From: Fragilariopsis cylindrus CCMP1102
Lineage: Eukaryota; Bacillariophyta; Bacillariophyceae; Bacillariales; Bacillariaceae
DNA: 64,000 nucleotides
NCBI GenBank assembly: GCA_900095095.1
Contig: FMBT01000448.1
Span: forward strand, 1 to 64,000
Reading direction: 5' to 3'
Part shown: piece by piece, positions 38,240 to 64,000 of the stretch
How positions within the stretch are numbered: the stretch's first letter is position 1
How the letters are laid out: every line of letters begins with the position of its first letter
Position numbers and translations under genes: made by a program
Notes under the pieces: generated by a model
What the model was told of the DNA's origin: nothing
Seen by the model: the letters and a program-made list of their open reading frames with translations, nothing else
Database searches by the model: none

Positions 38240-38893
38240 GATGATTAATATTTAATATTTAGTATGTATATATATATAAACGTTGTTGTCTTCGTTCGCA
38301 ATCTTCCGTGCCGTACAAGTATCAATTCAAAGCAATTCAATTCAAAGCAATTCAATTATTATTTAAAAAAAAATTTGCTTCAGTCTCAGGTCTCTTATTC
38401 TTAATTATGAATCAATCGAAGTACGACTATTATGCAGGTTAAATCTGTATTTTCCGAAATAGTTATCCTAGCGTGAGCTTTCTAGAGGTACACGGTGTAG
38501 GATGGTAAGATTTGATTTCGTTTGTAGGTTAGGGTGTGTTGATAATAATATATTGGATGCAATGAAAATAAATGATCGTGGGTACTATTGGGAGTTGTTG
38601 CCCGGCGGTGAAAAAATAATGATTTTTCAATTCGGGGAGGAGTTTATGCTAGTTAGGATAGTTTGCGCCCCACTTTGTCATACTGTCTCTCCCCCAAATA
38701 CCAATAAATTCTTCACTTCCACGTATCACTCACGATAACACGATAAATCAAGGCAAGAAAACAAATCTTCGCATGAATGATCACATGACATTTCAACAAC
38801 AACATAACTTAAACTTCTTTCGAACCCATCTAACAACACGAGAACAATCATTAAATTGATTCGATCTATTAATACATTCCCATTTTGAGGACG
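38240..38893. other. Divergent intergenic region, RAE1 / SET methyltransferase
   Basis: No supported gene; the 78-codon ORF at 38502-38738 shows no motif. It contains the small tandem repeat AATTCAAAGCAATTC at about 38325-38358. Confidence 0.5.
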
Positions 38894-40642
38894 ATGATGA
38901 AAATGGTGACTACTACAAGAAGGCATAGGCATACTGCGGTAGCGGCCTCATGGCTATTCCTCGTTCATGTTGTTATTGTTGTTGTTCTACCAATATTAAG
39001 AATACCAACGACGGTCGATTCCTTCGTCATTTCAAGGTCGTCGTCTCTCGACTATCCGACCTGTACCAGCCACAGCAATATCGCCAATAGCAATGATCAT
39101 AATAATATGATGATTTTACGAGCCACATCAGAGACTAGCAGCAGCACATCGATAGAGGAGACACAACAACAACATTTGGAAGAAATCAGTCGAAATTTTA
39201 ATAACGCATTCGAAAATTGTAGAAAAGAAATTACCAGGACGTGTAATGTTAAAATGGGACTATCACCAAATGGTGGATCAATGCGATTAGGTTGGATTGC
39301 CACCAAAGATATTAAAAAAGGAGAAATCATTGCCAATATGCCATACGATGAATTATGGGAAATATCATCGAAAACAGCACGGAAAACTATCTTCAAAGAT
39401 GTCTTAGATGACAAATACGAAGGATGGACGGGTGATACCGGTCTTGTTGCGTTATCATTGTTGAATGAAATTGCCAGGTCGAGTAAAGGTACTGCTGGTA
39501 TCGAAAAGCCGGAACGTCCACCCCAAATTCAATCGTTTATTGAAGAATGGATTCGTTCTTTGCCGACACCGACTGAAATGAAAATAGATCATCCACTTTT
39601 TTGGCCGGAAGAAGATCAAGAGGTATTACAATTATCAAGTAATACGAAGATCTATCGCGTATTAGATGACATAGAAGAAGATGCAAAATGGTTGGTGGAA
39701 AATATTTTTGAGAAAGATCGAGACACGTTTCCCGAAAAAGTGCAATTGTCCTCTGGAATCGACGTTCCCTGTTTTAGTGTAGAGGGATATAAATGGGTAA
39801 TGGCACTGACACAATCACGATCATTCTTTGTGGATGGAAAATCAAGAATAATGCCCTTTATGGATGGTGGAAATCATGACGATGATGCGATGGAAATACG
39901 CCCTGGCTACATGGGTACATTCGGAACGACGAAGGGTGCTGAGGTGATTGCAAATACAAAATACAAAGAAGGCGAGGAAGTTTTCTTAAGTTATGGTCCA
40001 AAAAGTGCAGCCGATTACCTGTTGGAACATGGATTTTGCCCACGCAGTTCATTTAAAACTGCTGTTAGTGAAGTTACAATAGAAATTGATTCGGAGGATC
40101 GATTTTATGATGACAAGTTAGATATATTAGAATTTGAAACGTACGATCAAGCACCCATGGATCCCACTCAATCGTTTGATGTTGTTAGTGCAATTGGAAG
40201 AGATGGTGAACCCGATCCAGCATTTCTGCAATTTGTTCGATTGAAGAAATTAAACAGTATGGATGCATTCATGTTGGAAAGTATTTTCAGGAAGGAAGTT
40301 TGGGGATTTATGGCACTTCCTGTTAGTGAAAGTAACGAATTGGCTGTCGTAGAAACAATCAGTGACATATGCGAATCATCGTTAGAAGATTTAAATCAAT
40401 GTCCTGAGGGTGGACCAGAAATTTGTACACAATTACGAGAATCAGAAACGAAGGCAATAAAAAGAACACTTGAATTTATGCTTCGAGAAAAGCAAGCACT
40501 TGATCTAAAGGAATACTATCAAGAACGTCGATTGAAGGATTTAGGACTAGATTCCGAATGGTCACGTGAGGAGGATATTGGCGATCCCGAGCTAAGTTTT
40601 GGACAAACCCGAGCTCCCGGTGGATCAGATTTCGACTGGTAA
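38894..40642 (+). CDS. SET-domain protein methyltransferase, Rubisco LSMT-like, probably plastid-targeted
   Basis: Single exon, 582 aa from ATG 38894 (the frame also opens at TTG 38885). A basic N-terminus and hydrophobic stretch (S-W-L-F-L-V-H-V-V-I-V-V-V) end in V-D-S-F-V-I-S, an ASAF-like plastid leader. The split SET domain reads M-R-L-G-W-I-A-T-K-D-I-K-K-G-E-I-I-A, then P-F-M-D-G-G-N-H-D-D-D-A and E-E-V-F-L-S-Y-G-P-K-S-A-A-D-Y-L-L-E-H-G-F. This is the Rubisco large-subunit methyltransferase (SETD3/RBCMT) arrangement with the C-terminal substrate-binding helical region. It would transfer methyl from SAM to Lys (or His) of a plastid protein; the substrate is not known. It ends 85 bp from the convergent HAD gene. 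Confidence 0.85.
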   Translation: MMKMVTTTRRHRHTAVAASWLFLVHVVIVVVLPILRIPTTVDSFVISRSSSLDYPTCTSHSNIANSNDHNNMMILRATSETSSSTSIEETQQQHLEEISRNFNNAFENCRKEITRTCNVKMGLSPNGGSMRLGWIATKDIKKGEIIANMPYDELWEISSKTARKTIFKDVLDDKYEGWTGDTGLVALSLLNEIARSSKGTAGIEKPERPPQIQSFIEEWIRSLPTPTEMKIDHPLFWPEEDQEVLQLSSNTKIYRVLDDIEEDAKWLVENIFEKDRDTFPEKVQLSSGIDVPCFSVEGYKWVMALTQSRSFFVDGKSRIMPFMDGGNHDDDAMEIRPGYMGTFGTTKGAEVIANTKYKEGEEVFLSYGPKSAADYLLEHGFCPRSSFKTAVSEVTIEIDSEDRFYDDKLDILEFETYDQAPMDPTQSFDVVSAIGRDGEPDPAFLQFVRLKKLNSMDAFMLESIFRKEVWGFMALPVSESNELAVVETISDICESSLEDLNQCPEGGPEICTQLRESETKAIKRTLEFMLREKQALDLKEYYQERRLKDLGLDSEWSREEDIGDPELSFGQTRAPGGSDFDW

Positions 40643-50711: not shown

Positions 50712-52433
50712 TTCCTTTTCGTTTTTTCTGAAGAGTGTATTATTTCTTCTGAAGAAGAAACGCTCCATTTCGTTCAACAACTCAGATCAATATATATATA
50801 TATATATACAAATCGCTACTGCATGGAGTCACTTTATACAAATATAGAGAATCAGATACGGAATTTGCTGAAATTCCATCAATGACGGGTTTAGTCTGAC
50901 GTCAAAAACGCACACATACACATACACTCGCATGCTCTCTATCAACTACTGAAATGAGGATCATTATGATATTGTCTAAAATATAGATTAAGGAAAAAAT
51001 TACTGCTAAGCATTTAAAATTTAAACCAGTATTATTAAGAAGAGCCTTTCGAAGCGAAAGATTTCCATTCGACCTTTGTCGTATATATGCAATTTATTTA
51101 ATGGCAAAAGTTTTATGTACGACTACTTCTTTATGCAACTTTTGCACCACATTCCCCGCGAAAAACAAACCTACACGATCAATGATGATAGCTTTTTGAT
51201 AGATGCTGCTGTGTCAACTTCTTCTGCTCGTCAAAGTTGTTGTTCTTTTTATTCGCTACAAATAAATTTCTTATTGAGAGAGAATGATTGTGTTATTATA
51301 TGATGCCTGCCAATTTGTTCATTTTAGACATCTTTGGAGATATTTATGTGCAATGACAATACATGAAATGATAATGTATGTGACATACATAACACCCATC
51401 TTATTTAAAAATACATGTTATTGTACAGTGTGTCATGTATGGAAGAATATCAATTGTGTGCGACAACGGTGCAGGCAATGATAATGTATATGTGACACAT
51501 AACAACTGCCTAATAGAAATACATGTTATTGTACAGCAGTGTAGAAGCAAGAGTAGGTTCATCTACACGGAATAATTCAAATTGTGTGCAACAACATTGC
51601 ATGCGATGATGATGATGTATGCGACATATAACAATCATTGAATATAAATACATGTTGTTATAAAGTACAACTATAGAATAGATGCATGTGTTGCATGAGT
51701 ATAGAATGACACATAGTATAATGTAACACATGGATCGGATTTTATTAGATATTGAAGTATGCAACTTCTTGCAGTATTAAAAGAGACATTCTTCTACCAT
51801 TGTTACTCTTGTTTCATATAATAAATCAAAATATAATTTGCTGCCGAACCCAACGCTAAAAACACAGCTGTGTTCAAACCTACTACAAAGTAGATTATGC
51901 CATCCCCAAAGGATGTGAATGGCGGAAATGTGTCTGTCTTTCAAAAAGGAGCATACTAATGAGTGAATACCCCAACAACAAACAATATTTGCTGTACTCT
52001 TACTTTATCAGAAAATACGGTCCTCAATCTGGCTACGGACCATTGAACATAAACCCAATCTGGCGACGGATTTTTTAATCTGTTTTCCTTATCACCTAAA
52101 CGTTGATCGCGCACGTTATAAAAATGTTAATTATAGTTATTTCATCGTATGTGATCATCGCAAACTCTGTATTCCACGTGCCTATTGTCATTTGTTTCAC
52201 TTCTGTAATTTTCGCGCCAAGTACTTGTTATTTCATCCTTCGTATGCGATTATCGCCAACTTCATGATTTTATGTGCCTACTGTACCGTGGCCTACCGTA
52301 TCTGTCATTTGTCATTGCCACCCTTTTCCGTTTTCGCGTCAGTATTAGGAGCATTTTTATTGCCTGCAACATTTGTGTATCATTGACATAAAGTTTTTCT
52401 ATCCAAGAGACATCGTCTCTCATTCAATCAAAG
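50712..52433. other. Long repeat-bearing intergenic region left of the MULE-ULP gene
   Basis: No supported gene. It contains a TATATATATATATATATA run at about 50792-50808, three diverged tandem units at 51368-51668, and a diverged duplication of about 88 bp at 52137-52300 (GTTATTTCATC ... GTGCCTA twice). No terminal inverted repeat of the downstream transposase gene could be identified by eye. Confidence 0.5.
51368..51668. repeat. Three diverged tandem units of about 110-125 bp
   Basis: Units begin near 51368, 51479 and 51606. Shared pieces are ATGATAATGTAT, GACA(T/C)A(T/C)A(T/A)AACA, AAATACATGTT(A/G)TT and AATTGTGTGC(G/A)ACAAC. The spacing is irregular and the units are degenerate. Confidence 0.7.
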
Positions 52434-55400
52434 ATGGTTGTTGACAACAATGCCCCACAGGGTGACACTTCTGCTGCTAGCAGCATCTTCCGGAAAAAGT
52501 TTCAGGATAGGAATAATCAGTTTCATGAACAACAAAGGCTTCAGCTCGAGGAGTTCAACGCCCAGCAACAGAAGCTGCTGCTCCAAGAGCTTCAGGACAA
52601 GCACCATCAGGTGGACAAACAAGATTTACACCTGCAATCACAGGAGGACCCACCATCTAATACTGTCGAGGACAGCAATATTTGCAGTTTTCGTGGAAGT
52701 GATAGTAACGGTGACAAACATCAGGTTGCAATTCTCGGAACTACAAAGATGAATGTCGCAGTATCATCGGACGTGACAAAGGTCGCCTCAACGACAATGA
52801 ATTCAAAACATGCTATGACGGAACTTACTCAACCCACCTCTGTTGCATTGGAAATAGAACCGAGTGAGGGCATCGTATCATCGTCGTCTCCATGTGTAGA
52901 TGAGTTAGATCATAGCAAAGATGACTGGATTGACAAGACTCTTGCAGACGACGAACACAAACGACAATGCGAGTTGTCCGATTCGGATGACGACGTCACT
53001 TCAGTGAATAAACCAGATCCAGTCGATGGCGACATTTCCTTTGGGCAACTCCAAACGCCTCAGTCCTTCCAGAAAGTACAACAACTTACTCCTGGATCTG
53101 GCATTGCCACGGATAATTTACAAATGATCATGGATCCTCCTCACGACATCGCTGATTATGATGAGGATCACGGCAACAATAACATTGAGGAAGAACCTCA
53201 AGGAGATAAAGACGAGGAAGTTCAAGAGCCACTACAAGCACAACAACCTGAAGCTGGCAACAATAACCTCAAGAACCATGAGGAAGAACCTCAAGGAGAT
53301 AAAGACGAGGAAGTTCAAGAGCCACTACAAGCACAACAACCTGAAGCTGGCAACAATAACCTCAAGAACCATGAGGAAGAACCTCAAGAAGCTAAAGACG
53401 ACGAAGTTCAAAATCGACCACAAGAAGAATATGAAGTTTCGACGGTGTGTGAAGACGATGACAGAGAAGATCAAGAGCAACAACAAGAAGAACAACCTGT
53501 TGACTCGTCAACGAGAGAAACTATTACAGAAGGGGCAGAGAAAGTACGCAAATTAGCTGGTGCGCGTTTTAATGATTTCGATTCAGGTGGATTAAACAAG
53601 CCTGCGAACGATGACATCTTCTACGATATCTTCCCCAATCCAATGCATACCATGTGCGAGTTAAAAGTTAGACAGATCGAAGCAGACCATTTGCTACAAA
53701 TAGCTAAAATCTATGCATACCGCAATTACGGAATAACCAAACTGGTATGGAAAGGTGGTCGTAGCGGTGCAACTAGGATCTACGGGTGCAAAAAGTGTGA
53801 TTTCGAAATGCATTTCGTTAAGGTCGAAAACACCAATAAATTTATATTAACCCAGAATGAAACTCACGAGAAGTGGAAAAATGCCTCTTTCCATCGAACA
53901 ACGTGCCAAAAGCATGAAATATCAACCTGTACTACAAATGCCATCAAAGATACGCATATTGTTTTGAACCATCCGGATTTCTTAAAATCCTTCAAGCTAT
54001 TTTTAGGTGACGATCCGATTCAAGCGGTTCATATAAAGACTGATGCCATATGTACTTTGATAGAAAATGAATTCAAAACCAAATACAAGCATAATGTCGG
54101 TTTTGGTGTACCGACCTGGAGCAAAATCGTTAACACCATGATCGATATTCTACATCGGAAAGCGGCGCTTCAGTATGCATTCTTGCCCGAGTTTTTGCTC
54201 GAACTCATCGACAAAAACGACGAAGTGTCCGTAATGCTTCAAACAGACGAAGATGGCCGATTCCTCCGGTTGTTTGTTGGTTTACCAGCTGCACTACGTG
54301 TTGGAGAACTCACCGTTCCTTACTACGTTGCAGACTGTTTTCACTACAAGTGCTCCTCCTACGACGGCGCTATGTTTGCCATTGTTTCAAAGAATGGTTA
54401 CGGTGAGACAGTGCTATTGGCCATAGCTATTATACCGATAGAAAAAACAAGACATCTTGGTTGGTGTATTGAGTGTTGTGTCCGACACGGTATGACGTTT
54501 ACTTTCCCGTTGTTTACCAATCAAGGTCCCCTTCTTGCGACTGCATCTGCCTTATTTCTTCATGCGGATAGTTATTATCTGCTCATCCATCTTAATATTA
54601 GGATATGTGTAATTCATTTTATTCGTGGTGCAAACCACCAAAACAACATAAAAGAAATCGAAGGTACCATATCTAATTATGTGAACCAGGCAAGCCGAGC
54701 ATTCAATCAAGCAGAGTTCTTCAGCATTATATTACAAATGGTGAGGTCCATTGTTGCCAGTATCAACGAAACTGCTTTGGTTAATGCCATCGACATTGCC
54801 TTGTACCTGTTGAAGGTTGACCCAGTTCATTGGTGTGTTTTTCCCAACATTCCTATGTTTGATCAATCTGCTTTCGATGAACAACTATCGACTGTGATTT
54901 CAGACCTATATTTTGTCCGAAACGTTTCAATCCATTCGAAAACACATTTGCAATCTGCAGATGATGATGAATTACACTTGCTAAATGTCTGTTGGGAAAT
55001 GACAGAAAGCCAAATCGCTGCTTTGAAAAACAATGGAGAAAAAAAAAATCTAAAGCCGAAAGATCCAATTCGGGGTTTTTGGAATTGGACCACCAACATT
55101 GTTGAGGGTGCATCTCTGGCTACAAAGAGTATTGGTGCTCGTTATCAGCCGCCACACACCTCGATAAGGAACGTCCTGAAATACGCTGCCACTCAAACAA
55201 GACGGCTGACCGAAAATATTACCAAATCCCAAGACGTAGGAAACTATCTAACCAAAGTTGGTATGCGGATTAAAAGTGACATCGGTAACCAGGAACCAGT
55301 TACAAGTATTATTTCCATTCAAAATGACCTACCAGAGGATACCGCTTGTGCCGATCATGGCGATAATTCCCGTATTAAGTCTACCAGATGTCGATTGCAG

Positions 55401-58400
55401 GGTGAAAGTTCCTCTTGGACAACCATTGTTTCATATGGGCATGCATTTCCACCATCTATTCGTTCTGTCTGCGAGATCCATATGATGATGTATGATGTAA
55501 ACTGCCCGTGTAAATGTGTAATCCATATTTTTGAAAAGTCTAAATCATTTGTATCGGTGGGCGGTGTAACAGTCCCTGATTTTGCACCCGAATACCCTGA
55601 GTTCGGGCGTGGTTTATTTAAACACGTATTCCCCAGATGCTTTCAGGTAGATGATGCAATGCACGATGAATCCGTCCGAGCTCAGATAATCGTTCCAACT
55701 ACACAGGATGGTGGTCATAAATTCTTTCCCGTTACACCTATTGACATTTATGGCAACCGTGTGCATTCAGCACCAAATTTGTTGGTTCCACCTAAATTTA
55801 CTGCCAAGTATTATCTTAACAATCCACGCATAATGTCTACAGGAGAAAGAGGTTATTTTAATTTTCGTGGAACTTACAGGAGAATGAAAGGACGATCTGG
55901 CCATCGTGAAAGTAGCGGTAGATTCTTTTGTCAGTATACGAGTGCCATGTCAGCTAGGAATGCAGTCCACCTCACCAACCCTACCGAAATCATCAGTAGT
56001 CATGCATCTCCGGATGTAGTTGTGGACGATACGAATATAAGGAAAAGTCACTGTTGTAGACATTGCGGAAAAGAAGGACATACCGTAAATGATTGTGAAG
56101 CGTTTCATACGTTTGATCAGGGCATCGTTTGCGATGATGATCCATCGATGGCTCAAGGTCACTACTTAGTATATCATACACCAAATAAGGTGTCCACTGA
56201 ATACTTACCATATGCAAGTGAATTAGCTAAGCCTCCTACTGTGGAATTGGTAGCACCTTCCACTTCTTCTGTTGCCGGCGATGGTTACGACTATCTATTT
56301 TTGTCGAGGAGCCTTCCCGGGGATGTAATTGATCAGGCGCTTGATCAAGGCCGTAGGCCAAAAGAAAAATCAGTTAGAAAAAAAAGAAATAAAGATCCCC
56401 TGGAAAGTCGATTGAGAGCTTTTGAGATTAGAACTAACCACCGTCCTACCAGTTCTTTATACCCAGGTGTCAACATGATTGAATTGAAGGGGGAATTCAG
56501 GAGAAGAAAGCAATTTAAAACCAGATTTGTTCGGGTGGGCGACCTTATTTCAAAAAGCAAGAGAGTTACATTGGCCGAAGAATTATTTATACTACGAGCT
56601 AACGAAATTGAAAATCATAACTTCAACGAAGCTGTCGACGTTGTTGAAATTACCACTGCCGTTTGTCCACCAGAACCACCACCACCGCTTACTGAACCTG
56701 ATTCTTATACTAGCTCCGACGACAATTACATTGGCAATGTAACCACTTGTGTTTTATCTCGTTCAACCACATTTGCATCCTCCCCGTCGATGTATTTTGT
56801 ACGTGATATGATTAGGTTGATTCCTCATCTAACGGATTGTTCCTTCAACACAAGTCCGAACCACAATAATACGGGCAATAATACGGGCAGTCGTCCGTTT
56901 AACCAACTCACTCGAGATTCCGAAGAAGGTGACGACGGCAATAATAATATGGGCAGTCGTCCGTTCAACCAACTCTCTCAAGATTCCCAAGAAGGTCACG
57001 ACGCCATTATTTGTACGCCGATGACGCAATTGGAGAATCCTCTGTCGACTCAAGAGGTTCGGCACAATTCCGATGACGAAGTAATTGACGTCGACGGTCT
57101 GAGTGATTGTTCCGACTCGGACGAACATGATGATGTTGAAATAAGTATGGAAACCATCCCTCTGTTGCACTGCATTGAAGGACTGAAATCTTATGATGTC
57201 CGGGAACATCAGTGTTTGATTCTGTGTAATTTAAGTGATAAGCCTCCTTCGTTTACATTCCGAAGGGACTTCGCAAATTCCAAGTCTAAGAACAAGTCTA
57301 CGATCAGGATCCCTTTAAAAGACACCTTCATATTGTTTTCAGCCGATACGAACCCTCCTTTCTTTCGCTTTCAATACGCTAAGGGGACAAGTAAGATTTG
57401 CACTCTGTTCTTTTCCAAAGTACATCTTGACTCAGCGCTCCAAATGGTTTTCAATATCGGAGGTGATAAATTTGCAGGGCCGTTGCCAACGGTAACGGAA
57501 AAGATCCTCCAGCTGCTACCATCTACCTGTGTGACGGAATCTAAATTTAGCTACGAGGAGTCCTCTGAACAAGATGTTTTTATTCCTGCAAATGGAAAAC
57601 ATAAATTGCTGTTTATTTATCCATTAATTGTGTCCAAGCTGTCATTGAATGATGTTACTACGGGTTTAAGTATATATTTTACAGACTTCCCATTTGATAA
57701 GCCATTGGTCGAACCTTTAGATGCTTACAAAAAATCTGGAAGAAGAGGCCACCTTACCTCATCTAGTTCTAGTTTTAATGAGGTGGTCAGTAGGGTTACT
57801 CCCCACATGGATCACTATCATGCTTTGGATGATACAGAGTGGTTGATGGATACCAACGTAGATTTTTACATGCTGTGGCTCACACGGAATTGCACCAAAA
57901 CACTTGACGCTTATTTCATGCCCAGATCGATATATGATCAGATTGATTTGAAAGGACCGAAAGCTGTGGTTAATATATTGAAAGCGAACAAGATCAATCT
58001 GGATGCAAAGTTAATATTTGTGCCTGTATGCCTGTCTGGACACTGGACGCTGATCGTTATCGTTCATCACACGGACATTGATGACTACCTTACTCGGAAA
58101 CAATCAAGGGCAAAGCTGGATACATCTCGTTCCTTTCCATGTTTCTTATATTTTGATTCGCTTGGTTTTAATAGCTCAAATGCAAAATCTATACGAACGA
58201 AACTGTTAAGTTTACTCGCGGCCTGGAGAGAGGATCAAAATCTGGAGAGAGGAATGGTCGACATCGCCGATAATAATAATAATAATAATAACCCTTTCGT
58301 CGGATCACCCCGAAAAATCATGCCCCTGTGCGTAATTAAAGGTGTGTACTCATAGCTGACAAATATCAGCCATTTTCCCCGTTGCATCTACAATTTCATT

Positions 58401-60436
58401 CAGATAATGTCTAATCGGACTTGTCAACTCATTCATTTTTTTCCTGTTCGCACTCCTGTTATTATTAAATATTTATTACAGTACCACATCAGCCTAATGG
58501 TAATGATTGTGGAGTATTTGTATGTTTCTTTGCATATGCTTTGTACAAATTCGTCATTGATACCAGTTATAAATTTCCAATGGATGATGCTGTTTCGGAC
58601 ACAGCCAAACTTGGTAACCAAATATTAAGGAATTGCTTTCCGGTAATGTCGTCATCCTCTGCATTCGCTGCCATCGAAGAGGACCCCGCTTACGCACAAT
58701 TATTTCGGAAAGAAATGCAACGTTTATATACTAAGTTGCATCGATTATATCTTTCAGTTGTACAGGTGCAGAAAAAAAAGAAAGCCGCACTCAAAACTAA
58801 TTCTGACGCCCATGCTGCTTCAACGACACAAGAACCTAATCATTCGAGTACAGCTAATGTCGCAGTAAATGATGTCGCAGTGGAAGCACAAGAAGAAGAA
58901 GATAAAGATCAAGACGAAGATCAAGAAGAAGAACCAACAGATGAAGTATTACGATCACATATTAAACGATTAATTCCATTAGTGAATTTACAATATACTG
59001 GTGTGAAAGCATTTACTAAATTATTATCAAAAGAATGTGGTGGTGCTAATCTGAAACCACGTTCAAAATTTATTGAACAAGCATTATCGGATGCGATTAA
59101 TGCAATGGATGAATCGGAATCGGAAGATGAATCGGAAGATCAAGAAGAAGAACCAACAGATGAAGTATTACGATCACATATTAAACGATTAATTCCATTA
59201 GTGAATTTACAACATACTAATTGGAAAGCATTTAAAAAATTATTATCAAAAGAATGTGGTGGTGCAAATCTGAAACCACGTTCAAAATTTATTAAACAAG
59301 CATTATCGGATGCGATTAATGCAATGGATGAATCGGAATCGGAAGATGAAAAACCAGAAAAGAAAAAAAGAGCCACAGGATTATTAATGAAAAAAGAAAT
59401 TTCATCAGAACTTGCCTCATTCATGGGAATATCATCCCCAGTCGTTGCTCTATCTGAAGATCAAGATATCGTAGCTCCCATCGTCCTCAACGAAGATGCT
59501 AGCGGTTTCTGCGACAGTGACAGTGACAATGAAATTCCTACTTCACCTCACAATACTAGGTTTGCTATGAAAAAACGAAAATTAGCTGAGGAAAGAAACG
59601 CTGTTTGTCCTGATGGTCTTGCGGTGGACATTAATCCGCCAGTCGTTGCTCTAGCTGAAGATCAAGACATCGTAGCTCCCATCGTCCTCAACGAAGATGC
59701 TGGCGGTTACTGCGACAGTGACAGTGACGATGAAATTTCTACTTCACCTCACAATACTAGGTTTGCTATGAAAAAACGAAAATTAGCTGAGGAAAGAAAC
59801 GCTGTTTGTCCTGATGCCAAAAGGAAGAAGGCTCAGGAACTAGTGGAATCCTTGCTCCAAGGTTCGAAAGAAGCAGTGAAACGTCAAGATCGGATGGATA
59901 AAATTGATGAGCGCAATAGCTTATTGGGTGTTGTAAACATTCAAGAATCCACTAATGATCCAAAACTATTCACTAGAAGAAATCCAGAAAATGTTCAACG
60001 CAGTCTCCTAAATTATGTTAACGAGGAACAACCAGAACGACTTTGCAATTTGACTACTTATGCTGAGTCTCTTGCGTCCATTAAATCACAACCTCGAGAC
60101 GAGTTGATAGAGGGTAATCGACAAAGAATGATCGCCCTTATAAAGAAATGGGGTGACGGTAGAACAAACCCTTACCGTAAATCAGAAAGAGATAGTATTT
60201 GCGATGTACTATATAATATTAAAAGGTATCAAATATCACCCTCAAAAGAATTAGAGATTCCAGATCTATTTAAGTATTTTACGGAACGTATAAATCGAAG
60301 TCGAAGCGGTGCAGAAATATCGCCAGACCAACTGGACGATCTTATGGACAAGTATGGGCCTTTCAGTGAGATCGCAAAAACACCAAGAAGGAGTCCACGA
60401 GGCCAACGTAAATCATCACCAAAAGTTGTAACTTAA
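52434..60436 (+). CDS. Giant MULE transposase-Ulp1 protease fusion with CCHC knuckle and DEK-C-like repeats
   Basis: Exon 1 is 52434-58341, intron 58342-58481 (GTGTGT...ACAG), exon 2 is 58482-60436; the join is in phase and gives about 2,620 aa. Order: acidic Gln-rich N-terminus with a 31-residue tandem repeat (from 53187, period 93 nt); Cys/His DNA-binding domain (about 405-500, G-C-K-K-C-D-F). The MULE transposase follows, with Asp634 in V-A-D-C-F-H-Y-K and I-I-P-I-E-K; the second Asp site reads F-T-N-Q-G (Asn696), and then R-I-C-V-I-H-F. A CCHC knuckle (about 1207) comes next. The Ulp1/C48 protease has H1870 in G-H-W-T-L, D1908 in Y-F-D-S-L-G, and Q with C1979 in Q-P-N-G-N-D-C-G, the last pair in exon 2. 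Then come two 73-residue DEK-C-like repeats and a 67-residue duplication. The protease is complete; the transposase has lost one acidic residue. Confidence 0.85.
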
Positions 60437-60937
60437 CTCAGCAAACTAACGTTAATAGTTAATTATTTTTAAAGTAAAACAGTCCGTCAGTCACTCGTGC
60501 ATGTTTCGTACGCTACCACAAATGCATGCAAAGTAACTACAGATAATAATGCCATTCGTGCATGTTTGTACTCAGATTCACAATCATAATTTTTATTATT
60601 TACATTTATTAAAAAAATATCTCTTTATGCGCACAGTTTACTAGCAAAACATTACTCCAGTCGTGCATGTTTGTACTCAGATTAACATAACAATATTATT
60701 GTTTTCACCAAAAAAAAAATCCACAACTGTGAATGAAAACAGTGCCTGGCTAGCGTAGGTACTAGTGCGTAGTGGGTATTCTCACGCATATGCTTTTGTG
60801 TTTGGCGTAGTATTTATTATATAGTAATAGTTTGTCTATTGTCATAAAATTACTTTCCACCAATTGTTTTTGCACCCAACCTATAATTTCCTATTATTTG
60901 ATTTGATTTGATTGGTATTCCGTTCCATTTTGTTATA
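60437..60937. other. 3' region with a thrice-repeated CGTGCATGTTTGTACTCAGA motif
   Basis: GTGCATGTTT(C)GTAC occurs at about 60497, 60556 and 60663; the last two copies share CGTGCATGTTTGTACTCAGA. No gene seen. Confidence 0.6.
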
Positions 60938-61600
60938 ATGTCCGAAGATAGTTCTAATCCTAACTGTGATTCCCCCGTCCTAAATGAAACGACTAATTCA
61001 TTGATTACATCCTCTACGGATACTGTCTACGTAAAATCATATTTCCGAAGACGATCTAAATCGGTCCATTCGAATCCTAAGCATTCTGTACGTCCCCACC
61101 TAATGGACCCGGCAACTTTCAAACAGGTTTTGAATACTCAGAAAGAAAATTTGGCGGAAGTCAAAGAACGTCAGAGATGTAACACAAGCATCCTGCATCA
61201 CAAACACGAGTGGAAGACTTTTTTTTCTAACAAAAAAAAAAGAAGAAGAGCAAAACCTCGGTTTGTCTGGCAAACAAAACAAATTAATCAGAACAAGGCT
61301 GAAATGGAGTTCATCAAATCAATCAACAACCTAAAAATACCAATGGAAACTGATTTTATCTGTGATAAAATTCAGAAGAATGCTACGAAATCTGATCATG
61401 AAGTTGTAGTTAATCGTGATTTGGTCCCAATGACCGAGACAAGGATGGACGTTGACAACTTTGACGATGGTCCTGATTTTGAGTCAGAACCAGAAGGTGA
61501 CGACTCAATGACGATTTCTTCTTTGAGAGAGAGTCCAACTCAGCTATTCGGAGATTCCGACCATGTGGATGACGACGAAGGTGAATTTCTGTTTGAATAG
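60938..61600 (+). CDS. Small charged nuclear-type protein, unknown function
   Basis: 220 aa from ATG 60938; the frame also opens at TTG 60908. It has a Ser/Asn/Thr-rich start, a basic middle (F-F-S-N-K-K-K-R-R-R-A-K-P-R-F, likely a nuclear localisation signal) and a strongly acidic C-terminus (E-S-E-P-E-G-D-D-S and D-D-D-E-G-E-F). No known domain is recognised. It lies 500 bp downstream of the MULE-ULP gene on the same strand and before a repeat block. It may be a second gene of the same element or a host gene. Confidence 0.5.
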   Translation: MSEDSSNPNCDSPVLNETTNSLITSSTDTVYVKSYFRRRSKSVHSNPKHSVRPHLMDPATFKQVLNTQKENLAEVKERQRCNTSILHHKHEWKTFFSNKKKRRRAKPRFVWQTKQINQNKAEMEFIKSINNLKIPMETDFICDKIQKNATKSDHEVVVNRDLVPMTETRMDVDNFDDGPDFESEPEGDDSMTISSLRESPTQLFGDSDHVDDDEGEFLFE

Positions 61601-61799
61601 AAAAATCCATCAGCAATTGCAGATTGGATAATATTGGATAATATTTGATGGTTTATAGATAATATTGGATAATATTGGATGGTTTATAGACTCGTAGTTT
61701 TAAACATGATATTGCTGTTCCTTGTTAATATATAATAATAATAAAATATTCTTAAAAATCGTATTTCTATCCATTTTAGGTCTTGGTATTAACTGGTTT

Positions 61800-62160
61800 A
61801 ATGAGGTACGGACCATCCTCATGAAAGCTGAGGGTTCCGTGAATTCCATTATCCTCAATTTGTTGTACGATCCTTATGTTCGTTGAGGGTATCCATGCAT
61901 CTCGTTAACAGTGTTAATGAGGAAAGTTATATGTCTCCAATTTTTGTTGTACCATCCTCATCATAGCTGAGGGTTCCGGGCCTTCCTTTATCAATGTATC
62001 GGACGTTTCGCCAAGGTGATTCGTATTTAGTCCGTCTGAGTTTACGATGCATTATTTCAAATTTGTTGTACTGTACGATCCTCATGAAAGTTGAGAGTTC
62101 CATGCATCTGATTGTCATTGTTAATGTGGATGATAGGTTTATCATATCACGCGTAAAAAG
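61800..62160. repeat. Four diverged copies of a GTACGATCCTCATGAAAGCTGAG-like unit
   Basis: Related segments begin near 61805, 61868, 61948 and 62072. Shared words are ATCCTCAT, GCTGAGGGTTCC (or GTTGAGAGTTCC) and CATGCATCT, followed in two copies by GTTAATG(A/T)GG. They look like degenerate subterminal repeats. Confidence 0.65.
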
Positions 62161-62236
62161 TACCAGTTGCTCGGATGGAAGATATTCCCATTTACCCATT
62201 GCTTAGCGTTGCGTGTTATGGCAGTTACAGTTTTAC

Positions 62237-62294
62237 GGTTCGCCGAGAACACTGTTTCCGTCAACACTGACGGAAACAGTGTTCTCGGCGAACC
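62237..62294. repeat. 58-nt perfect palindrome (cruciform-capable)
   Basis: Two 27-nt arms, each beginning or ending GGTTCGCCGAGAACACTG, pair perfectly around an ACAC loop. The inner half recurs at 62481-62509 as a 12-bp-arm hairpin. Confidence 0.9.
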
Positions 62295-62709
62295 CCGAAG
62301 CAGTTAATTTTAACCAATTAGAACATTCTGCCGTTTGAATAATATTTGCCGTTACACTCTGCTTTGTCGCGCGTAAAAAGTAACAGTTGCTCGGATGGAA
62401 GATATTCCCATTTACCTATTGGGTAGTTTTGCGTGGTATTATCAATCAACTCGGCGAACCACAAAGCAACTTATTTTAACCTGTTTCCGTCAACACTGAC
62501 GGAAACAGTGTTCTCGGCGAACCCCGAAGCAGTTAATTTTAACCAATTAGAACATTCTGCCGTTTGAATAATATTTGCCGTTACACTCTGCTTTGTCGCG
62601 CGTAAAAAGTAACAGTTGCTCGGATGGAAGATATTCCCATTTACCTATTGGGTAGTTTTGCGTGGTATTATCAATCAACTCGGCGAACCACAAAGCAACT
62701 TATTTTAAC
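62252..62709. repeat. Two tandem copies of a 229-bp unit
   Basis: 62252-62480 and 62481-62709 appear identical by eye. Each starts CTGTTTCCGTCAACACTGAC and ends AAAGCAACTTATTTTAAC. Part of the unit (GCGCGTAAAAAGTA...GGATGGAAGATATTCCCATT) also occurs once, diverged, at about 62149-62200 and again more diverged at about 62780-62850. Confidence 0.85.
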
Positions 62710-63271
62710 CAATTAGAACATTTTGCCGTTACCGTTTGTTATCATTCATACATTGGTGTCAATGTGGAGTTGGTATCAGTAGCCAAGAAGGTAGATATAC
62801 CGTTTTACCTTGTGCCTAGTTTTGCGTGTTATTTTTTATTAGCTAATCGGATGGTTGGTCGACTTCGGTCAAGTATGGATGTCGATGTCGAAACCATGGT
62901 GGTACATGACTATGAAAATGGAGCAGCAATACCGATAAAAGGGGAACTGTTCCATGTTAGCTACTTATGTATTTTGCTCGTTGTTTGCATGTTGTCCGTT
63001 AGTCGTATATCACACATACCGTGGAAATTCATACCTCATACCGTGGAAATTCATACCTCATACCGAGGAAACTCAAACCTCAACAAAACATGTAACATTA
63101 CGTCTTCCGTTGTAATGTGCGATAGTTCCACGATGAAATCAAATTTCTAGTGTCGATTCTTCCGATAATAACGTTACCAAGCACACATTTGGTACCGGTA
63201 GCTCATAAAATCTGAATGGAACACAAAACAACACAAAACTAAATAAACTATAATTGCTATTCATACACACA
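62710..63271. other. Diverged repeat tail with a 24-bp minisatellite
   Basis: It continues the repeat island. At about 63015-63085, CATACCGTGGAAATTCATAC-type units occur about three times. A 162-codon ORF across 62662-63150 lies in repeat sequence and is not accepted as a gene. Confidence 0.55.
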
Positions 63272-64000
63272 ATGGCATTACCAGATTTTCCTGAATACCC
63301 TCACGGAAAATTCGTAGTAGCAGCCGCCGCAAAAGGAGCAATTATGAATTCAGTTCAAGCCCGTTGTGCAAAGGCGGCAAAGGCGGCAAAGAATCAAACC
63401 GAAAACAAGAAGAAAAAGAAGACAAAGAAAAAGCAATTAGCATCGGCAAGGGAGGCCGAGGGCAAGGGAGAGGAAGAGGTGGAGGAAAAGGAAGGAGACC
63501 CTCCTTTCGGTATGAATGCTGATCATGGCTATAATACTTTGTACACACTAGGTACGACAATCGCTTCATGTACTTGGTCAATTTTGTCTACTGATGTTTC
63601 TGTTGCTGTTGCGGTCTTTGTTGTTCTTGGTACTGTTTGTTGTGATCAATTTTGCTGAGGTGGTTTTATTTTTCTTCTTCTTGCTTTCGGGATGTGCTTT
63701 TCTTCTTCTACGACTTGCTCACACCAATTTTTACGTATTGATTTTATAGCGGAACCACATTTGACTTGCGATCGTTGTCTAAAAACACACCCTACACGTC
63801 AGAAAATGTTAAAGTGCAGATGTTCGATGATGATGCCGTTAGCATCTTTACCAGTATTGCATTACGTCTCACCACCACCAATCTTAAGGGAAAAAAAAAA
63901 AAATGGATTGAAACCCGATGCGAATGTGGGTGTGACGCCTCACGTTCAATTTTTCTCCCATGATGTTATCAATAAGGATGAGGCTAAAGACGACGATTCG
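63272..64000 (+). CDS. Spliced gene of unknown function, running off the right edge
   Basis: Exon 1 is 63272-63551, starting at ATG M-A-L-P-D-F-P-E-Y-P-H-G. It includes Ala-rich and Lys-rich stretches (A-K-A-A-K-A-A-K and K-K-K-K-K-T-K-K-K) and an acidic segment (E-G-K-G-E-E-E-V-E-E-K-E). A good donor (AG|GTACGA at 63552) and acceptor (TTTTATAG, 63749) remove 198 nt. They join in phase to a frame that stays open to base 64000, reading A-E-P-H-L-T-C-D-R-C-L-K with C-x2-C and C-x-C pairs that could bind zinc. A 13-A run at 63891-63903 lies in the coding frame and could be miscounted. Without the splice, exon 1 would end at TGA 63656-63658. Function unknown. Confidence 0.5.

Follow-up and report, generated by a model that had tools for sequence, protein, structure and literature searches.

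A transposase gene with a predicted Ulp1-type protease domain within a 29-kb, probably Mutator-like, element of the diatom Fragilariopsis cylindrus

The window analysed here is a 64,000-nt stretch of Fragilariopsis cylindrus CCMP1102 (assembly GCA_900095095.1, contig FMBT01000448.1, positions 1 to 64,000, forward strand), and it represents the first 64,000 nt of genome contig C529, so that window and C529 coordinates coincide. Near its right end, at 52434-60436 on the forward strand, lies a gene encoding in one protein a Mutator-type transposase, a predicted Ulp1-type protease domain of the C48 family and two DEK_C repeats. Judged from its flanks, the gene is part of a multi-gene element of 29,361 bp, a feature beyond the view of an earlier sequence-only reading of the window, and it is probably the transposase gene of a giant Mutator-like DNA transposon that carries the C48 domain and accessory genes. 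The sequence-only reading had described a single two-exon gene of about 2,620 codons, and both its coordinates and its anatomy were borne out. Indeed, the list of open reading frames (ORFs) gives 52434-58352 as an open stretch of 1973 codons and another frame with its end at 60436, and splicing out 58342-58481 joins the two into 2620 codons with a single terminal stop and none internally. Exon 1 (52434-58341, +) holds 1969 codons plus 1 nt and has homologues in the proteins P0001-P0003, the GT-AG intron of 140 nt (58342-58481, +) falls within the codon of V1970, and exon 2 (58482-60436, +) follows from the joined translation. The donor of this predicted intron is supported by P0001 and P0002, since their exon-1 ORFs stop at the same place as exon 1 of the window read into the intron. 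Further support comes from a related gene on contig C477, whose exon 2 begins at the same codon, after AG; the C477 gene model is itself unsure because a stop interrupts its exon 1 shortly ahead of the likely donor.

Different domains follow one another along the joined protein. A Cys2-His-Cys finger of DNA-binding type (53787-53906, +; C452, C455, H487, C491), invariant in the four aligned proteins, precedes a Mutator-type catalytic core (54333-55106, +) in which the family alignment places D634, an Asn at position 696, C725-x-x-H728 and E891. A CCHC zinc knuckle (56055-56096, +; C1208, C1211, H1216, C1221) gives a weak Pfam match of 7.1 bits, below the cut-off. The C48 domain is divided by the intron into an exon-1 part with H1870 and D1908 (57837-58341, +) and an exon-2 part with Q1973 and C1979 (58482-58558, +). 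On the junction-spanning region PF02902 scores 41.5 bits (cut-off 20.7, E 1.7e-10), and a sequence search of PDB pairs the domain with Ulp1 and SENP chains (best E 9.6e-5); it is predicted to be an Ulp1-type protease that would cleave SUMO or a related tag. In exon 2, DEK_C (PF08766) scores 25.8 bits against a cut-off of 24.8, in two stretches. The residues of the finger, the knuckle and the full Ulp1-type catalytic set are all in place, and the two DEK-C-like repeats of the sequence-only reading are present, with PF02902 and PF08766 above their cut-offs; on the Pfam search of the gene, the Mutator-like element (MULE) domain was found only weakly. Its proposal of a MULE core stands as regards the D...D...CxxH...E motifs, which are conserved in the family, and does not stand as regards the profile, since PF10551 stays sub-threshold (15.4 versus 27.6 bits), or the second Asp, which is Asn in the window. 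The joining of a Mutator-type transposase, an intact Ulp1 set and DEK_C repeats in one protein, also part of that reading, is no gene-model accident, because P0001 and P0002 span all of the searched exon 1 and a relative on contig C86 has MULE motifs and C48 in one frame.

The limits of the element became visible in a DNA search with the left flank, which led to C529:81308-81379, in opposite orientation, and to contig C375, where the flank is tracked at 96%. The left terminal inverted repeat (52019-52090, +) is identical at 70 of 72 nt to the reverse complement of C529:81308-81379, and terminal inverted repeats, which the sequence-only reading had suggested looking for, are thus present. A perfect 10-bp target-site duplication, the same word immediately outside both inverted repeats, has its left copy at 52009-52018 (+) and its right copy at C529:81380-81389, outside the window. 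The whole element spans C529:52019-81379; its left 11,982 bp (52019-64000, +) lie in the window, and the remainder, which runs 17.4 kb past the window end, was read from the same assembly. C375 matches 50859-51100 at 95% over 245 nt and 81380-82800 at 93% over 1447 nt, and the 10-bp word occurs once in the examined piece of C375. Because both flanks match and the word is single, C375 is, on this comparison, the allelic empty site of the 29-kb element and, by the same token, the insertion is still polymorphic between haplotypes. Left of the element, a stretch of about 0.9 kb (51101 to ~51993) with internal repeats spaced 108-129 nt is also absent from C375 and represents a second allelic difference. 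Inside the element, a palindrome with perfect 27-nt arms (62237-62294) has related copies on C195, on C178 and at C529:72738, and appears to be a small dispersed repeat.

Other genes are carried by the element; stop-to-stop frames were listed for this cargo and Pfam was run on ten of them. An ORF of 232 codons (60902-61597, +) has no Pfam match at E <= 1. Further to the right lie an RPA-like gene with a Rep-A_N domain (RPA1 N-terminal; C529:75439-76788, -; 36.4 bits, cut-off 26.7), a PHD-finger gene (C529:77445-79805, +; 37.0 bits, cut-off 24) and a SWIM gene (C529:80098-81087, -; 23.8 bits, cut-off 19.6) that also has a C1-like match below cut-off. Against PDB sequences, the RPA-like ORF finds nothing at E <= 1. 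As for the PHD gene, its residues 493-752 are 55% identical to the locus C771:10884-11633, and several loci resemble parts of its residues 106-385 at 27-33%. Two frames at C529:65429-68836 and 69629-72124, both on the reverse strand, correspond to a large cargo protein that P0005 (1612 aa) and P0006 (1651 aa) present in one piece, with no match in Pfam. By eye, this protein (~1610-1650 aa; C529:65429-72124, -; P0005-P0008) has an HxD...H...R pattern like that of 2-oxoglutarate-Fe(II) oxygenases. Such an identity is not claimed; Pfam gives no such match, and PDB only one unrelated match (E 0.39). An oxygenase, if real, would be a second possible anti-silencing enzyme of the element. On viral contigs, neither the transposase nor the large cargo protein has a confirmed relative. 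Elsewhere in the window, at 38873-40639, an ORF with SET and Rubisco LSMT substrate-binding domains fits a photosynthetic host without proving one.

The element has sisters in the same genome. Two of them could be delimited, one on C83 (295232-324845, 29,614 bp) and one on C86 (17816-38314, 20,499 bp). Inverted repeats and an exact duplication of 10 bp are present in both, so that duplications of this length occur in all three elements with both ends read; the inverted repeats of the two relatives extend over 64 nt at 95% and 90 nt at 84%. C83, C306 and C86 keep the order and relative strands of the transposase, RPA-like and SWIM genes as found on C529, the common layout being a transposase-C48 gene on one strand and, at the far end and on the opposite strand, the RPA-like and SWIM genes. 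On C86 the MULE motifs and C48 (78.4 bits) occupy one frame of 1984 aa, and on C83 they share a frame with one stop between them. The C-terminal 240 aa of the C86 transposase look PDZ-like by eye, with 25% identity over 88 aa (E 1e-4) to a C59 ORF that has a below-cut-off PDZ match. Some 27 kb separate the transposase core from the C48 matches on C306, so that this copy is interrupted, perhaps by a nested insertion.

The RPA-like search returned six matches, namely itself, C83, C306 and C86 (E 3e-22 to 3e-19) and two weak ones at about 3e-7 (C85 and elsewhere on C83); the three non-self matches below E 1e-10 all lie on contigs holding a transposase relative. The same is true of three of the four non-self SWIM matches, five matches being found in total (self, C306, C83, C86 and C587). 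The SWIM relative at C587:61391-61969, with no RPA-like or transposase match listed on its contig, may belong to a partial element or to another family. With the large cargo protein, eight matches were obtained; besides itself, C83 has two and C306 has one, and the other four are short and confined to the first 49 residues. The C83 element recurs on C306 and C154 at 99.7% over ~4770 nt with the same left edge (right ends there unread), and these two copies are identical to each other in 40 nt of flank, different from that of C83; such a recurrence speaks for recent movement. The C86 element sits in a dispersed repeat, because 38 of the 42 matches of its joined flanks run uninterrupted across the join (the others being its own two flanks and two partial matches).

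The transposase belongs to a wider family. With residues 380-1969 of exon 1 as query, a protein search returned four proteins: P0001 (99% identical to exon 1 of the window, 1921 aa) and P0002 (56%, 2030 aa), both covering the whole query, P0003 (54% over 73%, 1382 aa) and P0004 (29% over 26%, 2069 aa). The domain order of P0004 differs, as its C48 lies between transposase core and knuckle. The P0004 tail (~residues 1960-2030) is chromodomain-like by eye, with none listed by Pfam. The C86 relative as query added eight further proteins, in a search where only the candidates sharing most words were scored. Within the genome, transposase relatives are found on C83, C306, C154 and C86, at 30-37% identity in one search and 28-34% in another, and only one of eight matches in the assembly covers the whole of exon 1, namely the window itself. 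The window family and the C86-type family align over 812 columns (window residues 405 to ~1286, probability 100, E 9.1e-49), and their homology ends before C48.

The catalytic signature of Mutator transposases is D, D, CxxH and E. By text pattern in 16 core rows, the first Asp is present in 15 (unmatched in P0004), the second Asp in 15 (the window, with Asn696, being the exception), CxxH in all 16 and the E motif in 14 (unmatched in C83 and C306). P0001 has Asp where the window has Asn696, and copies with the full signature thus exist. PF10551 scores 13.2-16.0 bits in P0001-P0003 and 16.6 bits in C83 (profile positions 5-97 of 99), and it is the sole transposase model that Pfam lists for the window, P0001-P0003 and C83. 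No Kyakuja-Dileera-Zisupton (KDZ) model was found at E <= 10 for the window, P0001-P0004 or the seven members of protein set A5; the Pfam scans of C83 and C86 reached only E 0.1. One MULE protein of the genome that scores above cut-off, on C69, gave no hhalign alignment with either family, a result that says little as one side was a single sequence. MULEs make target duplications of ~8-11 bp, and some of them are without inverted repeats, so that such repeats count as supporting evidence only. The element has inverted repeats, a 10-bp duplication and, at the level of the family, the D/D/CxxH/E signature.

Comparison of the gene with other loci of the genome by blastn points to captured pieces towards both ends of the reading frame. 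Near the start, 52846-53041 (+) matches a Myb-domain ORF on C59 (90% over 196 nt; probably captured), and 53045-53595 (+) holds matches to a C669 locus (74-91% DNA identity, 47-110 nt, partly inside 93-nt repeats). In exon 2, 58882-59436 (+) matches a DEK_C-SWIB-SWIB gene on C61/C632 (92% over 280 nt, 88% over 335 nt; probably captured), 59714-59926 (+) a C97 locus (82% over 216 nt) and 60023-60269 (+) a C-5 cytosine DNA methylase ORF on C68 (82% over 247 nt); a shorter match leads to C315. The two DEK_C repeats, of 219 nt each (58905-59123 and 59124-59342, +), are duplicated from a stretch like that of the SWIB gene, whose own DEK_C stays below the Pfam cut-off (19.4 bits). Compared with this gene, repeat 1 differs at 4 of 183 nt and repeat 2 at 10, and for repeat 1 the nonsynonymous divergence (dN 0.021) is about equal to the synonymous one (dS 0.025). 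The repeats thus look like a very recent capture from the DEK_C-SWIB gene, and the direction would be from host to element because the SWIB gene has domains absent from the element. In P0002, one DEK_C lies near the N-terminus (16.1 bits, below cut-off) and is 89% identical over 71 aa to the same SWIB gene. As the transposase of P0002 is only 53-56% like that of the window, two captures of the same host DEK_C are probable, into opposite ends of related transposases. Collectively, these matches strongly suggest that host-gene pieces (DEK_C-SWIB, C5 methylase, Myb) are acquired at the ends of the transposase frame, from host to element as far as the direction can be read. The sequence-only reading had described the DEK-C repeats as chromatin-type; they are not established as a working part, a piece of the DEK_C-SWIB gene at another locus being nearly identical to them. 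Most likely, DEK_C is a recent passenger, and one that may contribute chromatin binding.

Nine transposase-type proteins score above the C48 cut-off (the joined region of the window, P0004, C83, C86, P0010, P0012, P0014, P0015 and P0016), and P0013 has C48 as a precomputed domain. C48 is above cut-off in all five scanned C86-type relatives and listed for six of the seven A5 members, P0009 being unscanned. The catalytic H, D, Q and C are kept in all nine aligned rows (D read by eye), among elements whose C48 domains are in part no more than 20-30% alike. A PF02902 census of the genome gave 11 matches, two of them in one C83 frame and two in one C306 frame; the split domain of the window is not among them. 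The C48 domain of the window, upstream region included, matches a gene on C477 over 376 aa at 28% (E 2e-29), a contig without a match to the transposase core, and it matches C86 over 17 aa only. In C48 trees, the window clusters with the C477 and C90 genes and with the second C83 domain, separate from the C86 type. Constraining the C48 domains of the elements to one clade was rejected in the approximately unbiased test (p-AU 0.003, and 0.019 without the two longest branches), with C158 counted among the elements despite its uncertain status. The trees were built without P0002 and P0010 (incomplete C48), C306:232179, C670 and two C306 matches scoring like those of C158 and C83. A first clade test, with the second C83 C48 among the elements and C158 outside, was set aside, its p-AU of 2.5e-48 being trivial since that C48 is a fresh copy. 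Indeed, the second C48 of C83 (C83:300324-303863) follows the first in the same frame and is 97.1% identical in DNA, over 1241 nt, to an Ulp1-type gene on C90. It is thus strongly suggested that C48 entered the family more than once from Ulp1-type genes, probably at least twice, with C83 showing a recent further gain; the C477 and C90 genes would be cellular donors rather than pieces of old elements. On C158 and C670, C48 lies in frames of ~2400 aa, and the C158 domain shares 77% identity with the one in P0016, so that C158 is perhaps another such element. A MULE core was unconfirmed on C158, where a 1-kb upstream piece has stops in all three forward frames.

How the element as a whole should be classified depends on features read directly from the assembly, namely the inverted repeats, the 10-bp duplication, the empty allele and the sisters with the same ordered core. 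KDZ transposons make 8-bp target duplications, and the 10-bp duplications of three elements speak against a giant KDZ element. So do the D...D...CxxH...E motifs, PF10551 as the only transposase model and the lack of KDZ models at E <= 10 in the scans of the window, P0001-P0004 and A5. A KDZ element thus appears improbable, even though its size and accessory genes would fit what is described, in the part of the account available, for giant KDZ elements (PMC12477816), and PF10551 is sub-threshold. Still less probable is a host gene domesticated from a transposase, to which the single full-length exon 1 match in the assembly and the loss of the second catalytic Asp might point; such a gene is disfavoured because the inverted repeats are intact, the duplication is perfect and the genome also holds an empty allele, which together mark a polymorphic insertion. 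The least probable reading is an accidental composite, in which a small element and neighbouring genes would lie between chance inverted repeats. The uneven presence of the PHD and large cargo genes among the sisters would agree with it, but the duplication and the empty allele bracket exactly 29 kb, which disfavours it, and two further delimited elements keep their transposase, RPA-like and SWIM genes in the same order. A giant Mutator-like transposon therefore stays the probable reading, and several points weigh against it or against its parts. The window copy is without the second catalytic Asp. PF10551 is unlisted for P0004, C86 and the seven members of A5, and below cut-off in the window, P0001-P0003 and C83. 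AlphaFold models of the transposase core and of the large cargo protein P0007 are too poor to use (predicted local distance difference test scores of 46.7 and 28.7, respectively). The large cargo ORF of the window element is split by an insertion (C529:68837-69628) whose ends resemble inverted repeats. Only part of the gene set is shared, because the large cargo protein was not found on C86 in the genome search with eight matches, and none of the 36 matches of the PHD gene lies on C83, C306 or C86. No empty allele was found for the C83 site, whose joined flanks matched only its own two flanks. As regards C48, P0002, which is outside the nine aligned rows, has Asn at the Asp position, the window, C83 and P0004 are long branches in the trees, and the grouping used in the clade test was chosen after the first tree.

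The other question is whether C48 does anything for the element. Since Mutator elements copy pieces of genes and Ulp1 is often copied, C48 could be a passenger without a role. This is unlikely, though clearly less so than the readings above. Other parts of the same frame resemble young copies, DEK_C repeat 1 is without sign of selection, the second C83 domain was itself copied recently, P0002 has Asn in place of the Asp, and Ulp1 regions are described in plant MULE and CACTA families (PMC2528002, as far as its accessible text goes). Passengers should decay, however, and H, D, Q and C persist in all nine aligned rows; moreover, C48 occurs above cut-off in nine transposase-type proteins, with P0013 in addition, and was apparently acquired several times among related transposases. 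The transposase would cut and paste the element through its inverted repeats, and if C48 does serve the transposon, the tethered protease would strip SUMO or a SUMO-like tag from proteins that act there in silencing or repair, with weaker silencing or steered repair nearby as the outcome; the SWIM and RPA-like proteins might help at the site of transposition. Because of Asn696 and the split cargo gene, the window copy perhaps moves only with the help of another copy. By analogy with plant elements, an anti-silencing role of C48 is a plausible hypothesis.

A broader proposal, which we hold at somewhat less than even odds, would be that of a Mutator family of 20-30 kb with a fixed core of transposase-SUMO-protease fusion, RPA-like and SWIM genes, in which host chromatin and SUMO genes are captured into the transposase frame itself. 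Capture of SUMO proteases would have happened at least twice and probably three times (window lineage, C86 lineage and the fresh C83 copy), one host DEK_C would have entered opposite ends of two related transposases, and the result would be an anti-silencing or repair-steering device within the transposase. If true, repeated capture of one enzyme class would indicate strong selection for SUMO cutting at the element. Three delimited elements of 20-30 kb with clean edges, one of them polymorphic between haplotypes, are available in one genome, and a comparison of independent acquisitions within a single transposase family offers a way to test the role of Ulp1 in Mutator elements.

Several known systems share part of these features. 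Giant KDZ, EnSpm and Sola-1 elements of algae are likewise of ~15-30 kb, with accessory genes, nested insertions and often a defective transposase, and KDZ elements of ~30 kb are known in brown and green algae; they differ in transposase superfamily and target duplication, and the portion of that account at hand names no giant Mutator element (PMC12477816). MULE-Diatoms (group 37) have SWIM and inverted repeats of 123-124 bp, and differ, by description only, in having one ORF and no target duplication, with a main text that in its accessible part is without Ulp1 or C48 (PMC6446971); in the window element SWIM is a separate gene at the far end. A MULE expansion is reported, in the available text, for Nitzschia inconspicua (PMC8329260). 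Pack-MULEs likewise carry host-gene pieces in Mutator-type elements; according to a review, in the part available, which also discusses size limits of DNA transposons, those of Jiang et al. do not exceed 7 kb. Pack-MULEs have no transposase of their own, whereas the gene described here carries one, free of internal stops and with one catalytic position changed, and its host-gene pieces extend the transposase frame within a multi-gene element. In fungi, TET/JBP transposons are DNA transposons with an enzyme thought to undo silencing; the enzyme differs, and Mutator is not among the 10 lineages named in the text available to us (PMC12730594).

The closest parallels concern Ulp1. In plant MULE and CACTA elements with an ULP1 region (grapevine, melon, rice), Ulp1 is joined to a transposase, so that the fusion itself is not new; those accounts, compared by description only and in the parts accessible, describe neither elements of 20-30 kb nor RPA-like and SWIM genes. 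Outside subscription papers, a literature search limited to partly accessible texts named no giant Mutator element with an Ulp1-fused transposase. KAONASHI (KI-MULE) and VANDAL elements (VANC/KIU genes, Arabidopsis) likewise combine a Mutator-type transposase and Ulp1 in one element. In these plant elements, as far as the sources extend, Ulp1 has a gene of its own, which in KI-MULE runs opposite to mudrA, and there are no inverted repeats (PMC2528002, PMC13317346), whereas the element described here is 29 kb long, has inverted repeats and holds C48 inside the transposase frame. The Kaonashi likeness drawn by the sequence-only reading is thus apt for a possible role and not for the layout. Indeed, KIU/VANC genes, which can hold an Ulp1 domain, reduce methylation of their own family and aid its escape from silencing, and the same source, in the part available, calls the function of Ulp1 in Mutator elements unknown (PMC13317346). 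On this partial account, the plant KIU/VANC genes would represent the nearest precedent for an anti-silencing role of C48 (PMC13317346).

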